A DNA stretch of 45,370 nucleotides, taken from positions 1-45,370 of the IMG/VR virus record IMGVR_UViG_3300028393_000107, one strand, 5' to 3'. Shown in pieces: positions 4,224 through 31,941 of the stretch (its first letter is position 1; every line of letters begins with the position of its first letter). The notes beneath the pieces are model-generated. The model saw nothing but the letters and a program-made list of their open reading frames with translations. It was not told the DNA's origin and did not search any database. The position numbers and the translations under genes are program-made. The DNA comes from a virus.

Positions 4224-4253
4224 AATATAACTCCTTTATCAATTTATGATACT

Positions 4254-4282
4254 ATTATATCAAATAAATTAATTAATGTACA
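4254..4282 (-). promoter_or_regulatory. early-type promoter 2
   Basis: TGTACA (4277-4282), 17-bp spacer, TATAAT (4254-4259) on the minus strand in the context CTGTGTACATTAATTAAT. Drives the 115-residue gene ending at 3876 and the small genes after it. Confidence 0.8.
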
Positions 4283-4291
4283 CAGTTATTT

Positions 4292-4468
4292 TCACTTATT
4301 TAAATATTTTCTTTCAGCCTGTAATACTTTAATAGCTGTTGCAAAGATCTCTAATTCTTGATCAGAGTGTTCCATGTTTTTAAACCATTGAACAGTAGCA
4401 TTAACTGCATCTTCATACTGCTGTTGTTCTTCCATTGAAACTGTTTGCGCAAATTGAACTTCAGACAT
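4292..4468 (-). CDS. 58-residue acidic helical hypothetical protein
   Basis: ATG at 4468 (MSEVQFAQTVSMEEQQQYED). Helical, Gln/Glu-rich, ending AERKYLNK. It follows the 67-residue gene with one base between and ends just before promoter 2. Function unknown. Confidence 0.55.
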   Translation of the reverse strand: MSEVQFAQTVSMEEQQQYEDAVNATVQWFKNMEHSDQELEIFATAIKVLQAERKYLNK

Positions 4469-6796: not shown

Positions 6797-6845
6797 TTTT
6801 AAGAAAACCCGCCAAGGTTGCGCTTCTTCGATAGGCGTGGCGGGT
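6797..6845 (-). terminator. rho-independent terminator after the co-chaperonin gene
   Basis: On the minus strand an 8-bp perfect stem ACCCGCCA/TGGCGGGT (6807-6814 and 6838-6845) is followed by TTTTCTT. It lies 18 bases after the co-chaperonin stop, so it ends that transcript; the wall-hydrolase gene starts 70 bases beyond. Confidence 0.8.
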
Positions 6846-13633: not shown

Positions 13634-14467
13634 TTACATACTACTTAACATCACCTTTAATTTACGTTTTAATTCTAAAGCACCAGTACGGCACGGCCAG
13701 CCAGTAATTGAATGACAGTTACTACAGTTATTTGGAGTTATTGGATGAACTGCAGGTTTTATACTAGCACCAAGGTAATTACCTACGTGACAGTTTTCGC
13801 ATGTTTCAGTTCCAGTGTGAGTATAAACCCCACCAGCAAAAGAAGAAAATCCAGCTTTATGACAAGTATCGCATGATGCTGCACCAGTTGGGATATGATT
13901 AGAGGGCAATCCCATCGCATTAGTTCCATTATGACAAGTAGCACAGGTACCAACAACAACCCCTATATGCGAGAAACGAGCACCATTCCAATTTGAAGTA
14001 CTATGGCATGCATCACAACTTAATGTAGTTGCTACGTGGTCTTTAGGTTTACCTACCGCATTTTGAGATGTAAATGCTCCGTTGTGGCAGGTCGCACAAC
14101 CTCCAGGTGGGCTTGTAGTTGCATTATGAATCATTGTTGCTCCACTGAATACTGTAGTGGTATGACAAGTAGAACATTCTGCAGAACTTGGAATATGCTG
14201 AACAGTTTTACCAATTGCCGGCGGTCGAGTACCAGAATGGCAAGTAGCGCATAAAGTAGGAGTACCTTTCCATACACCGCTTAGATGGCAACTAGAACAA
14301 CTGCACAATGAAGTAGCATGATATCCAGTTAAACCATATGTACTATGCAGAGGTCGATAAGCTTCACAGATTGAATCTGCTTTAACATCACATGATACCA
14401 AGAATGATAAACACAACAATAATATTGCACCAAATGTAATAACTTTGTGAAACCAATGATTATCCAT
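13634..14467 (-). CDS. nonaheme c-type cytochrome (multiheme, exported)
   Basis: A 277-residue protein with nine CXXCH heme c motifs starting at residues 57, 73, 98, 124, 151, 175, 199, 223 and 248. The mature part has exactly nine further histidines (41, 50, 91, 114, 144, 167, 191, 217, 241), most lying 6-10 residues before a motif, as expected for bis-His hemes. The N-terminus is a signal peptide; LVSC (23-26) could be a lipobox, otherwise cleavage is near A30. The repeat (CATCHNG..A.G.P..HIP) is that of bacterial multiheme cytochromes. Heme attachment would need the host's maturation system. RBS is AGAGG; it is coupled to the porin-like gene. Confidence 0.9.
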   Translation of the reverse strand: MDNHWFHKVITFGAILLLCLSFLVSCDVKADSICEAYRPLHSTYGLTGYHATSLCSCSSCHLSGVWKGTPTLCATCHSGTRPPAIGKTVQHIPSSAECSTCHTTTVFSGATMIHNATTSPPGGCATCHNGAFTSQNAVGKPKDHVATTLSCDACHSTSNWNGARFSHIGVVVGTCATCHNGTNAMGLPSNHIPTGAASCDTCHKAGFSSFAGGVYTHTGTETCENCHVGNYLGASIKPAVHPITPNNCSNCHSITGWPCRTGALELKRKLKVMLSSM

Positions 14468-15459: not shown

Positions 15460-15545
15460 TGGTGGAGGAGATAGGAATCGAACCTATTCACCCAGTGAGA
15501 ACGGATTTACAGTCCGCCGCGACTCTCCTACTTCGCCGCTCCTCC
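15460..15545 (-). tRNA. tRNA-Tyr (GUA) with long variable arm and encoded CCA
   Basis: Acceptor GGAGGAG/CTCCTCC, discriminator A, encoded CCA (15460-15462), anticodon stem around CTGTAAA with anticodon GTA (15508-15510), a long class II variable arm and T-arm loop TTCGATT. Last of three adjacent tRNAs, in transcription order Met, Trp, Tyr. Confidence 0.93.
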
Positions 15546-15551
15546 AAAAAC

Positions 15552-15625
15552 TGGCTACGATGCACGGACTTGAACCGCGACTAAAGGTTTTGGAGACCAT
15601 TGTGCTGCCATTACACTACACCGTA
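15552..15625 (-). tRNA. tRNA-Trp (CCA) with encoded CCA end
   Basis: Acceptor TACGGTG/CATCGTA, discriminator G (the Trp identity base), encoded CCA (15552-15554), D-stem GTGT/GCAC and T-loop TTCAAGT. The anticodon loop CTCCAAA gives anticodon CCA (15591-15593). The anticodon stem ATGGT/ACCTT has one T-T mismatch, a mild oddity. Confidence 0.9.
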
Positions 15626-15627
15626 CT

Positions 15628-15702
15628 TGGTTGCGGGAGACGGATTCGAACCGCCGATCTACAGCTTATGAGACTGTCGAGTTGCCACTTCTCCACCCCG
15701 CG
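15628..15702 (-). tRNA. tRNA-Met (CAU) with initiator-like acceptor end
   Basis: Starts CGCGGGG and ends TCCCGCA-A-CCA, so base 1 (C) faces base 72 (A), the unpaired hallmark of bacterial initiator tRNA. G2:C71, C3:G70 and A11:T24, all formylation determinants, are also present. The anticodon stem ACAGT/GCTGT lacks the three G:C pairs of initiators. Anticodon CAT at 15668-15670. It may act as initiator, elongator or a hybrid. Confidence 0.92.
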
Positions 15703-16267: not shown

Positions 16268-16618
16268 TTATTTAGAGAAGTACATTTTAGCTTGTGCTTC
16301 TGAACATTTGAATTTCTTACCAGCATTTTCAAAGATGTACGGGTATGCTTTACCACGTGTGTTATAACCAACTAAAGTTTTACCACACTTAGAAGTCTTA
16401 ACAAGACCTTTAGTAACCATCATGAACTCTAACACTGAGTCCTCTTTAGTTTTTGCACCTTTAACTTTAGCTTCCATTTTAGTAGTGAAAGATCCTTCAT
16501 TGAAACTGATGTTACCAATCTTAATTTCAATACCGTTTTCTTTTGCATAAGAAGACAAGATAGCTGAGATGTCTTCACGGATGTTTTTAAGGTTTGCTTT
16601 GTCGAATTTTGTAATCAT
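16268..16618 (-). CDS. hypothetical early protein, 116 residues
   Basis: Start taken at MITKFDKANLKNIREDI; the preceding MRRKYI is only the leader ribosome-binding region GAGAAGGAAATATATT. Lys-rich, with IKIGNISFNEGSFTTKMEAKV and a C-terminal RGKAYPYIFENAGKKFKCS. First gene after early promoter 7. I recall the family from phages, without a function. Confidence 0.62.
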   Translation of the reverse strand: MITKFDKANLKNIREDISAILSSYAKENGIEIKIGNISFNEGSFTTKMEAKVKGAKTKEDSVLEFMMVTKGLVKTSKCGKTLVGYNTRGKAYPYIFENAGKKFKCSEAQAKMYFSK

Positions 16619-16654
16619 AATATATTTCCTTCTCAATTAATTTAATATAAAGCT

Positions 16655-16683
16655 ATTATACACTAAATAAGAATTAAAGTACA
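16655..16683 (-). promoter_or_regulatory. early-type promoter 7 (TGTACT variant)
   Basis: Minus-strand TGTACT (16678-16683), 17-bp spacer, TATAAT (16655-16660), context GTGTGTACTTTAATTC. Confidence 0.78.
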
Positions 16684-16710
16684 CACTTATTTAGTGTTTT
16701 TGCAAAATAA

Positions 16711-20530: not shown

Positions 20531-20558
20531 GAGAGTCTCCTTGACTAATTAAGATACT

Positions 20559-20587
20559 ATTATATAACAAAGCCCAATTAATGTACA
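20559..20587 (-). promoter_or_regulatory. early-type promoter 9
   Basis: TGTACA (20582-20587), 17-bp spacer, TATAAT (20559-20564) on the minus strand, context TAGTGTACATTAATTGG. Drives the 375-residue gene and rnh. Confidence 0.8.
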
Positions 20588-20590
20588 CTA

Positions 20591-20845
20591 TTATTTTACC
20601 AGATTTACGACTTCTTCATAAAGAGTTTCAAGTTCATCAAACTCTTCAGCTTCTTGAGTCATATTTTGTTTATAATAAACCTTAGCTAATTTAGATATGG
20701 TTTTCTTAGGTAACTCAAAGGTCTCAGATAGATCTGCAATAATGTCTTTAACGAGATCTTTTTCTGCAGACACTCGTGTATAACTATCTGCAATCTCCTG
20801 CAGTGCGTCTTTAAATTTCTTACGGTCTACTTCATTGCTAATCAT
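20591..20845 (-). CDS. dsbA: DsbA-like double-stranded DNA-binding protein
   Basis: Eighty-four residues; the C-terminal KVYYKQNMTQEAEEFDELETLYEEV resembles T4 DsbA (ALYHKQERDVFEAETEEVVELYD), and the length is close (T4: 89). T4 DsbA binds dsDNA near late promoters. The gene lies near rnh as in T4. Confidence is limited by the short alignment. Confidence 0.62.
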   Translation of the reverse strand: MISNEVDRKKFKDALQEIADSYTRVSAEKDLVKDIIADLSETFELPKKTISKLAKVYYKQNMTQEAEEFDELETLYEEVVNLVK

Positions 20846-27870: not shown

Positions 27871-28881
27871 TCAATTATTATCTATAAATCTCTTTGCTGT
27901 TGCTAATGATGATGCAATTGCTTGATGCATATCTACATAAACGTACATTCCACATCGTCCAATAAACTCCATATTTGGTGGAGTCATTTCTCTGTACATT
28001 TTATATATATCCCTGTTTTTACCTTTTAAGTCCTTAACTGGATAATATCTTTCCATATTATTTTGTTTATAATCACATGGCTCTTCATATGTAATAGTAG
28101 TCATCTGATCATTTTCACCATGATTAGGAAACTTTTTCCACTCTGTCATTCTTGTATATGGGCCACTATGAGTGAAATTAACGCAAGGAACTGGAAGAAC
28201 AGAAGGGCTAGGTAAGTCCACGTGGTGGAATTTAATAGATCGATATGGTAACTCCCCATGCACGTAATCAAAAAACTGATCAATAGGCATACTATTGAAA
28301 ATAAAGTCAAAGAAAATGTTAGACGATTTGTCATATTCTACTCCTAATTTTACATCAATATCTGGATGATCAAAAATGTTTTCAAAGATAACAGTGTAAC
28401 CATGTTTTGGCATCAGCTGATATTCATCATTTGGGAAATACAACTCATTCATGTCATCACGAATTGGTACACGTGATAGAATAGATGGATCAAGTTCTTC
28501 AATCTCTTTATCCCACATCTTTTTAGTATATGGTCTAATGAATGTGTCAATGATATTCTCTTCACCAACAATCTCTTTAGTTTCTTTGTTAACAGGAAGC
28601 GTAACGTAACGGCCATCCTTTAGGATAGCTTTTACTTTATGTTGATAAGGTACCCATTCACCAAACTGAGATACCCAATCAACTACATCTTTATTATTAG
28701 TATGGAAGATATGAGGACCATATTTGTGGATACGAATACCATGCTCATTCTCATAGTCATAGCAATTACCACCAACATGGTCTCTCTTATCAATCACAGT
28801 TACAAAATGCCCAGCATCGGCAAGAGTACGAGCAATTACTGCTCCTGAAAAACCTGCGCCAACTACTAAGATTTTAGACAT
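27871..28881 (-). CDS. glf: UDP-galactopyranose mutase
   Basis: A 336-residue flavoprotein: FAD-binding GAGFSG (8-13), DKRDHVGGNCYDY, HKYGPHIFHTNN and RPYTKKMWDKEIEELDPS are Glf signatures. It interconverts UDP-galactopyranose and UDP-galactofuranose. It overlaps the glycosyltransferase gene by 16 bases and is seven bases from nrdA. A GalE-like epimerase lies one gene upstream, so a galactofuranose donor could be made from UDP-glucose. Confidence 0.87.
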   Translation of the reverse strand: MSKILVVGAGFSGAVIARTLADAGHFVTVIDKRDHVGGNCYDYENEHGIRIHKYGPHIFHTNNKDVVDWVSQFGEWVPYQHKVKAILKDGRYVTLPVNKETKEIVGEENIIDTFIRPYTKKMWDKEIEELDPSILSRVPIRDDMNELYFPNDEYQLMPKHGYTVIFENIFDHPDIDVKLGVEYDKSSNIFFDFIFNSMPIDQFFDYVHGELPYRSIKFHHVDLPSPSVLPVPCVNFTHSGPYTRMTEWKKFPNHGENDQMTTITYEEPCDYKQNNMERYYPVKDLKGKNRDIYKMYREMTPPNMEFIGRCGMYVYVDMHQAIASSLATAKRFIDNN

Positions 28882-29934: not shown

Positions 29935-29963
29935 ATTATAACATAAAACAGAATTAAAGTACA
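29935..29963 (-). promoter_or_regulatory. early-type promoter 12 (TGTACT variant)
   Basis: Minus-strand TGTACT (29958-29963), 17-bp spacer, TATAAT (29935-29940), context GATGTACTTTAATTC. Its -35 region overlaps the 3' end of the epimerase gene. Likely drives the glycosyltransferase-glf-nrdA-fmdB-nrdB run. Confidence 0.78.
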
Positions 29964-30919
29964 TCATTTCTTTTTAATTCTGCTTGCCAAGCTGATCTAC
30001 ACATATCTTCAAGAGTATGTTTGATCTCTAGTCCATCAAATTGGTTATCAATTGCTAAAGAAGCAGGATCTCCTTCTCTACGAGTAGTATATTTAACTTC
30101 AATAGTCTTTCCAATAACTTTACTCATAGTATCTATTACTTCTTTAACTGAATAACCTTTACCAGAACCAATACACTCATAAGGAGTATTCTTTGGACCT
30201 TCTTTAATGGCATTGGCAATTGCATTTGCTAGATCTACTACATGAATATAATCACGAACACATGTACCATCGGGTGTATTATAATCATTTCCATAAATAT
30301 ACATATGAGTTCTAGTACCAGCCGCTACTTCAGCCGCAATACGAATTAAATGTGTAGAAGCTCCTTGTTGAGAATTGAACCCATCAGATCCTGCCACATT
30401 AAAGAAACGAAAGATTGTATAACCTTCTGCTTGTTCTTTAATAATATCTTCGGCAGCAACTTTTGATCTAGCATATGGAGACTGAGGATCAAAGGCACCA
30501 GCAGTAGAAGCAAAAATGAAATGAGTTTCATAATCAATTTGACTTAACATATTCAATGTACCATTTAGATTGGTATCATAATAATATGCAGGTTTCTTTG
30601 TTGACTCTTCAACTGAAATTAATCCAGCCAAATGTACAATAACATCGAATTTTTCTCTAATCATGCATGTACGACGTACGTCAGAATGAATAAACTTAGA
30701 AACCCACCTAGAAACATCATTCTGCATAAGATCTTTATCAAGGCCAATAACATCATAACCTCTTTCGAAAAGCACCTTGCAGAGGTGAGAACCAATGTAA
30801 CCGGTGCAGCCGGTGACTAAAATCTTTAGTTTTTTCTCACCTAATTCATCATAATGTATTCCATCATTACCATTCTGGCCTACAATATCTACTCTATCTT
30901 CATTCCAATCATCACTCAT
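29954..30919 (-). CDS. galE: UDP-glucose 4-epimerase-like protein (GalE family)
   Basis: Start taken at MSDDWNEDRVDIVGQ (30919), which has GGAG and forms ATGA with the primase stop. A 321-residue short-chain dehydrogenase/epimerase: NAD-binding GCTGYIG (37-43), VIHLAGLISVEES, catalytic S-P-Y-A-R-S-K and FRFFNVAGSD, DYIHVVDLANAI, CIGSGKGYSVKEV. It likely makes UDP-galactose from UDP-glucose. An unusual 30-residue N-terminal extension precedes the fold. Confidence 0.82.
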   Translation of the reverse strand: MSDDWNEDRVDIVGQNGNDGIHYDELGEKKLKILVTGCTGYIGSHLCKVLFERGYDVIGLDKDLMQNDVSRWVSKFIHSDVRRTCMIREKFDVIVHLAGLISVEESTKKPAYYYDTNLNGTLNMLSQIDYETHFIFASTAGAFDPQSPYARSKVAAEDIIKEQAEGYTIFRFFNVAGSDGFNSQQGASTHLIRIAAEVAAGTRTHMYIYGNDYNTPDGTCVRDYIHVVDLANAIANAIKEGPKNTPYECIGSGKGYSVKEVIDTMSKVIGKTIEVKYTTRREGDPASLAIDNQFDGLEIKHTLEDMCRSAWQAELKRNDVL

Positions 30920-31941
30920 ACTTTTCTCCAATTATTATATCTAAGTTGTGCTGCCAACCCTGTATAGGTGTTTTTATTTATGGTTTCTAAAATAGTGTCT
31001 GGGGACTTACCAGATAGAATCATTTCATTAATATCTTTTTCTACTATATTATCTGGCCATAAACAAACTGAATACCCTTTATCAATATAACCTTTTACTT
31101 GTTTCATAATTTCTTTATTACGTGGTTCATTATCAGGAATTAAGGTAACATTACTTTTAATAGATCTAAATAATTCAATGTCAAGAGTAGAGCCTGCTAC
31201 AGCTAATCCATTAGGAATAAACAGTGAATCAATTGGGCCTTCAGTAACATACACACGTTTAGTATAATCTACACGTTCAAGACCATAAACTTTTTCTGCA
31301 TCATCATCTAACTTAATAGAAAAGTATTTAGGTTCCTCATTACCAAATGCTCTGCCTTGAAACATAAAACATTTGCCATGGTTATTAAAGAATGGAATAA
31401 CCAAACGTGGTACATCATTTTCCATATTTACAAATTTATTTTTACCCATTGCAACATTAGTAAAAGATTTAAACTTAGGAGCAAAGTAGAATAAATTCCA
31501 TTTATCATGAGGAATTTTACGTCTTACAAGATATGCTAAAGCTGGATGAGTCATTGGTAGTTTATCAACAGGGTCAATAGAGTCTAAAATACCGTCAATT
31601 AATTTCTTTGGTTCCTCTTTAAAAATATCTTCAAGAGTAATTTTTGCATATGGAGTATTATGGGATGTTGTTTCTTTATATTTTTCAAGAGTGTAATCTG
31701 AGTATAACCCTGAGTCAACTCGTTTAAGTAAATTACCAAATGCGCAAGACAAACCACAATTATGACATTTATACATAAGAGTAGTTTTATGAAGCATCAC
31801 ATAACCACGGGCTTTACGTGAATCTTTTTTTGAATCACCACATACCGGGCAAGAGAAGTTCCAATAGTTCTGGGACTTTTGTTTAAAATTTCTTAACTTA
31901 TAGGATAGTAATGAAACGTATTTAGTATCAATATAAAGCAT
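30916..31941 (-). CDS. 61: gp61-like DNA primase
   Basis: A 341-residue protein starting MLYIDTKYVSLLSYKL with GGAG well placed; a longer ATG exists four codons upstream. A zinc ribbon (CPVCGDSKKDS ... CHNCG) is followed by a primase core with MFQGRAFG, VYVTEGPIDSLFI (TOPRIM Glu) and LIPDNEP (TOPRIM Asp). T4 gp61 makes pentaribonucleotide primers with gp41 helicase. Under early promoter 13; coupled to the epimerase gene. Confidence 0.85.
   Translation of the reverse strand: MLYIDTKYVSLLSYKLRNFKQKSQNYWNFSCPVCGDSKKDSRKARGYVMLHKTTLMYKCHNCGLSCAFGNLLKRVDSGLYSDYTLEKYKETTSHNTPYAKITLEDIFKEEPKKLIDGILDSIDPVDKLPMTHPALAYLVRRKIPHDKWNLFYFAPKFKSFTNVAMGKNKFVNMENDVPRLVIPFFNNHGKCFMFQGRAFGNEEPKYFSIKLDDDAEKVYGLERVDYTKRVYVTEGPIDSLFIPNGLAVAGSTLDIELFRSIKSNVTLIPDNEPRNKEIMKQVKGYIDKGYSVCLWPDNIVEKDINEMILSGKSPDTILETINKNTYTGLAAQLRYNNWRKV

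Follow-up and report, generated by a model that had tools for sequence, protein, structure and literature searches.

The window, by which we mean the whole 45,370-nucleotide stretch of viral DNA analysed here, is an IMG/VR contig of 35% G+C that carries genes for an RNR, PhoH, a primase and a GH19 endolysin. Methylophilales phage Melnitz has the nearest primase (47% identity), and the nearest RNRs are those of an Alcaligenes phage and of pelagiphages, while a megablast search with the first 25 kb of the window matched no named phage. A run of three tRNA genes lies on the minus strand, in the order fMet, Trp and Tyr, and the features relevant to this run are as follows:

15628..15702, minus strand: initiator-type tRNA-Met(CAU), 75 nt, CCA encoded (ARAGORN, Rfam and sequence read)
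15661..15677, minus strand: anticodon arm, positions 27-43, ACAGU CUCAUAA GCUGU (sequence read)
15668-15670, minus strand: anticodon (sequence read)
15673-15675, minus strand: stem positions 29-31 (sequence read)
15663-15665, minus strand: stem positions 39-41 (sequence read)
15552..15625, minus strand: tRNA-Trp(CCA), second in the cluster (ARAGORN)
15460..15545, minus strand: tRNA-Tyr(GUA), end of the cluster (ARAGORN)
16616..16708, minus strand: copy of a dispersed repeat, GTGTAC...TATAAT-like (families D1-D3)

The dispersed repeat is intergenic, about 67-93 nt long, and occurs in at least nine copies between 3065 and 22176 (e.g., 4235-4301, 16636-16702 and 20540-20606); on the minus strand, its families D1-D3 combine GTGTACATTAATT with a TATAAT-like box. 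The repeat is probably the phage's own promoter, and the copy at 16616..16708, which lies upstream of a run of genes closed by the tRNA cluster, could possibly serve as the promoter of that run. We also observed, at 13634-14467 on the minus strand, a gene for a 277-amino-acid protein with nine CXXCH motifs, a lipoprotein-like signal and a Cytochrome_C7 match (a multihaem cytochrome c), which had no match among 50,697 phage records; contig L006 spans this locus at 99.6% identity. A match to the abiF RNA family, barely over its gathering score, lies at 6807-6844 (minus strand); the genes downstream of it encode a cell-wall hydrolase and a ClpP-like protease, and PADLOC found no defence protein among the ORFs tested around it. 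Additionally, the sugar-modifying genes for a UDP-galactopyranose mutase and an NAD-dependent epimerase/dehydratase occupy 27871-28881 and 29954-30931 on the minus strand.

ARAGORN and Rfam agree on a tRNA-Met(CAT) at 15628-15702 on the minus strand (RF00005, 55.6 bits against a gathering score of 29), which bears out the initiator-like tRNA-Met proposed there by the first-pass annotation. The tRNA, with CCA present in the DNA, reads CGCGGGG TG GAGA AGTGGCA ACTC G ACAGT CTCATAA GCTGT AGATC GGCGG TTCGAAT CCGTC TCCCGCA A CCA. All the marks of a bacterial tRNA-fMet outside the anticodon stem are found in it, each as that annotation had claimed: a 1:72 mismatch (C1×A72) accompanied by G2:C71 and C3:G70, together with A11:U24. 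The stem itself is formed by A27:U43, C28:G42, A29:U41, G30:C40 and U31:G39. The bases reported in place of the canonical GGG:CCC at 29-31:39-41 were thus correct, but the description of a tRNA without the three G:C pairs overstates the loss, because only the first and third pairs are gone and the middle G30:C40 is kept. That annotation gave G30:C40 with no emphasis on its survival, and it passed over the encoded CCA and the A-A mismatch at 13:22. Reviews call the three G:C pairs (3GC) conserved in the initiators of all kingdoms (PMC4611024). Since the full motif is missing from mycoplasmas and many phages as well, 3GC, though highly conserved, is short of universal and represents a canonical form rather than a class boundary, and a tRNA with initiator marks, G30:C40 and alterations at 29:41, 31:39 or both belongs with the unconventional, middle-G:C initiators. 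On these sequence features, we classify the window tRNA as an unconventional initiator of an already known kind, with an exact stem precedent in phage T5.

The same gene recurs in other contigs. L006 derives from the same phage (99.6% identity over 11.9 kb) and contains an identical tRNA, and L005, L007 and L008, which derive from unrelated phages, carry the window tRNA with one substitution, at base 66. In the stretches compared, the DNA that these three align with the window consists of tRNAs only, and one protein is shared, a ClpP-like protein at 40% identity. Chance, misassembly or sequencing error behind the stem was ruled out on this basis—the tRNA is present in five contigs: the window, one contig with the same tRNA and three from unrelated phages with the one-base variant. 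Near-identity across three unrelated phages suggests that the tRNA is under selection or moving as a cassette, or both, and makes decay unlikely.

To place the stem in a broader context, phage-borne initiators were collected by IMG/VR scans with patterns blind to the anticodon stem. Among 114 distinct phage initiators separated by over 300 bases from either end of the stretch examined, pair 29:41 departed from G:C in 66 and pair 31:39 in 35, whereas 30:40 did so in 6, so that G30:C40 was retained in 108. A broader IMG/VR set comprised 136 distinct initiators, 40 of them with a pair other than G:C at 31:39; G39 accounted for 25 of these 40, more than any other departure, and C39 was retained in 97, mostly with an unaltered CUCAUAA loop. 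Position 31:39 holds a standard or G-U pair in 135 of the 136, so the phage stem is under a pairing constraint. The anticodon loop is also variable in some phage copies.

Cellular genomes searched with the same kind of pattern gave a match in 102 Pseudomonadota and 50 Chloroflexota; G003 and G005, search centres picked for their variant stem, were excluded from the count, leaving 150 genomes. Pair 31:39 was G:C in 149 of these, and the lone exception, in G197, lies on a prophage contig with a repressor and an anti-repressor. The variant copy in G003 likewise adjoins a phage repressor and a primase. The contigs L173 and L316, considered as cellular exceptions, were dropped, having turned out to be phage or prophage. 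The difference between phages and cells at 31:39 is pronounced (Fisher p ~1e-13), with the proviso that the tRNAs are non-independent and that genome counts are set against distinct-tRNA counts. This control covers two phyla and, for Patescibacteria, the 5' half of the stem, in which position 29 is variable; 29:41 varies in part of the Pseudomonadota too, as AGG:CCU. Scanning 84,980 species genomes for Y31:G39 in this frame gave ten cases, and those from Portnoybacteria and Terrybacteria appear to be chromosomal—hence, the U31:G39 feature is not exclusive to phages. Stems with this kind of change are common in phages and almost absent from the sampled bacterial genomes, so the window gene belongs to an under-described class and is no one-off. 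Nor is the stem peculiar to one phage: the same or a similar stem is found in many phages and a close one in mycoplasmas (PMC10568206). A limited literature search found no paper describing the phage-wide 31:39 pattern; one may exist, and the pattern may be new.

The window gene probably encodes a functional phage initiator tRNA, and its most likely role is that of a working, formylatable extra initiator. The elements for methionylation (the CAU anticodon), formylation and exclusion from elongation (C1×A72, G2:C71, C3:G70 and A11:U24) are all present. The host MetRS and Fmt would charge and formylate the tRNA, and IF2 would bring the tRNA into the P site, in which the G30:C40 pair is expected to matter most. 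The initiator pool would thereby be enlarged during infection. Initiators with a weak stem are outcompeted when the wild-type pool is large, so the phage copy should carry the greatest weight when host tRNA-fMet is scarce or damaged; it could initiate if it were abundant or the host tRNA-fMet depleted. Work by Samhita in 2012 reportedly found E. coli viable with an initiator whose first and third G:C pairs were missing, and wild-type competition is said to mask such middle-G:C-only initiators, with viability requiring that the competition be removed. Retention of G30:C40 alongside variable 29:41 and 31:39 in phages matches this middle-pair rule. The identical stem of the annotated T5 initiator and the conservation of the tRNA in L005, L007 and L008 also speak for a working initiator.

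Published work bears on this role from both sides. The 3GC pairs aid passage from the 30S to the 70S initiation complex, the formylation marks being separate (PMC7949028), and G30 is contacted by the tails of uS13 and uS19 (PMC7531240). Mycoplasma pneumoniae lives on an AU/GC/GU initiator, maintained at very high tRNA abundance, whereas the same AU/GC/GU stem in E. coli leads to poor growth (PMC10568206), and a UA/CG/AU mutant, in which the middle G:C is also lost, is inactive (PMC10486304). Two features of the window tRNA count against a working initiator: the 13:22 A-A mismatch and the predicted minimum-energy fold of the unmodified molecule, which contains no cloverleaf (z -1.09).

Why the stem changed is a separate question, and relaxed selection—an auxiliary copy whose outer pairs drift among paired states to no particular benefit—stands at somewhat less than an even chance. 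It would explain why pairing is retained while base identity is lost, why 29:41 varies in phages and some cells alike and why the loop is variable in some phage copies. However, it sits uneasily with G39 being the commonest departure even though transversions at both 31 and 39 are required, and with the near-identity of the whole tRNA across otherwise unrelated phages.

Evasion of a nuclease is a refinement of the extra-initiator role and compatible with it: host VapC-type tRNases would cut tRNA-fMet at A38|C39, and a phage copy with G39 would stay uncut and sustain initiation. The VapC toxins of Shigella and Salmonella do cleave tRNA-fMet between A38 and C39 (PMC4105405), phage tRNAs have been proposed to escape anticodon nucleases (PMC10264068), and the phage excess over cells falls at the very pair adjoining this bond (40/136 against 0/150, bar the prophage copy). 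Moreover, G39 is spread over phages of several families and hosts; a weak tRNA tree gives it 18 inferred changes, compared with 23 when the labels are shuffled. We nevertheless regard VapC evasion as rather unlikely. It offers no general explanation, since C39 is retained in the majority of phage initiators; phages are reported to refrain, as a rule, from encoding tRNA-fMet if that tRNA is the target (PMC10264068), and relaxed constraint could equally yield the 31:39 pattern. The sole feature seen in the window tRNA that fits evasion is the G39 change at the VapC bond, and PADLOC, applied to ten window ORFs of which six lie close to the tRNA cluster, detected no defence or tRNase genes. A wider version, in which phage initiators remodelled at 31:39 with G30:C40 fixed are nuclease-proof replacements and the window's cassette moves between unrelated phages, is more doubtful still.

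The first-pass annotation had further suggested that a variant initiator could favour particular phage mRNAs or relaxed start sites, taken here as non-AUG starts, a view to which the standing of the 3GC pairs as a P-site fidelity element (PMC7949028) lends some plausibility. Among 61 minus-strand genes, though, the predicted starts were 57 ATG, 3 TTG and 1 GTG under a scoring that prefers ATG, and a Shine-Dalgarno-like motif of at least 4 bases preceded 38. As these start codons are ordinary, relaxed start sites find no support; the anticodon is an ordinary CAU and the same stem occurs in many unrelated phages, leaving the suggestion very improbable. Host shut-off by a defective initiator that binds IF2 or the 30S subunit and disturbs host ribosome maturation seems scarcely credible: in E. 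coli, over-expression of 3GC-mutant initiators does impair 30S maturation (PMC10486304, PMC7949028), but those mutants had also lost the middle G:C that the window tRNA keeps as G30:C40, and such a product would hurt phage translation too. The CAU anticodon and the non-3GC stem could finally suggest an elongator tRNA-Met or a lysidine tRNA-Ile(CAU), a class that we dropped as having almost no probability, since C1×A72 and A11:U24 replace its closed 1:72 pair and Y11:R24, and since L005, L007 and L008 have a second CAU tRNA, in which G:C closes position 1-72, adjoining the same initiator.

Several stem types recur among named phages. Searches started from the window sequence retrieved about two thirds of these phages, and searches with the E. 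coli initiator most of the rest, so that the list conveys breadth and not rates. The AU/GC/UG stem of the window occurs in T5 (as an annotated initiator), Klebsiella phage FZ41, Escherichia phage VEcB and Synechococcus phage S-CRM01. GC/GC/UG was found in Vibrio phages VH7D and D482, UA/GC/UG in phage Lak-A2, AU/GC/CG in Streptomyces phage Wakanda, Aeromonas phage Aeh1 and Rhizobium phage TM3_3_3, and UA/GC/CG in Sinorhizobium phage phiM12; Mycobacterium phage Roots515, Pseudomonas phages pf16 and D3 and Bacteroides phage LoVE have the full 3GC. In phages, the outer two G:C pairs prove expendable, unlike the middle pair, and variants exceed those of the sampled cells at the pair adjoining a known toxin cleavage site. 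It is in this phage-wide pattern at 31:39 that the interest lies.

Among cellular initiators, those of Portnoybacteria and Terrybacteria (L165, L167, L172 and L174) share U31:G39 and a similar D arm with the window tRNA, but their 29:41 is G:C or U:A and they lie in conserved, apparently chromosomal Met-Met-Asp tRNA clusters; other Patescibacteria retain G30 and G31 in the 5' half of the stem. Rhizobia have initiators in which one or both outer pairs are changed and the middle G30:C40 is kept, and these are the sole initiators of their cells. Mycoplasma initiators (AU/GC/GU) also combine altered outer pairs with G30:C40, although their 31:39 wobble is G:U in place of U:G (PMC10568206), and they too are sole cellular initiators, with co-adapted ribosomes. 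The canonical bacterial tRNA-fMet, as encoded by E. coli metZ/metY, resembles the window tRNA in its acceptor stem (CGCGGGG...CCCGCAACCA), A11:U24 and CUCAUAA loop; the window tRNA differs by the lack of G29:C41 and G31:C39 and by a short D loop (75 nt in all), which is also found in some Pseudomonadota and Chloroflexota initiators. The tRNA-fMet of T5 (AY543070, 32428-32505) shares A29:U41, G30:C40, U31:G39, A11:U24 and an open 1-72 pair, but has U1 and U72 where the window has C1 and A72, and the rest of its sequence has diverged. Because T5, a phage of E. coli K-12, shares the stem, the role of phage-encoded initiator tRNAs is testable in a standard laboratory system.
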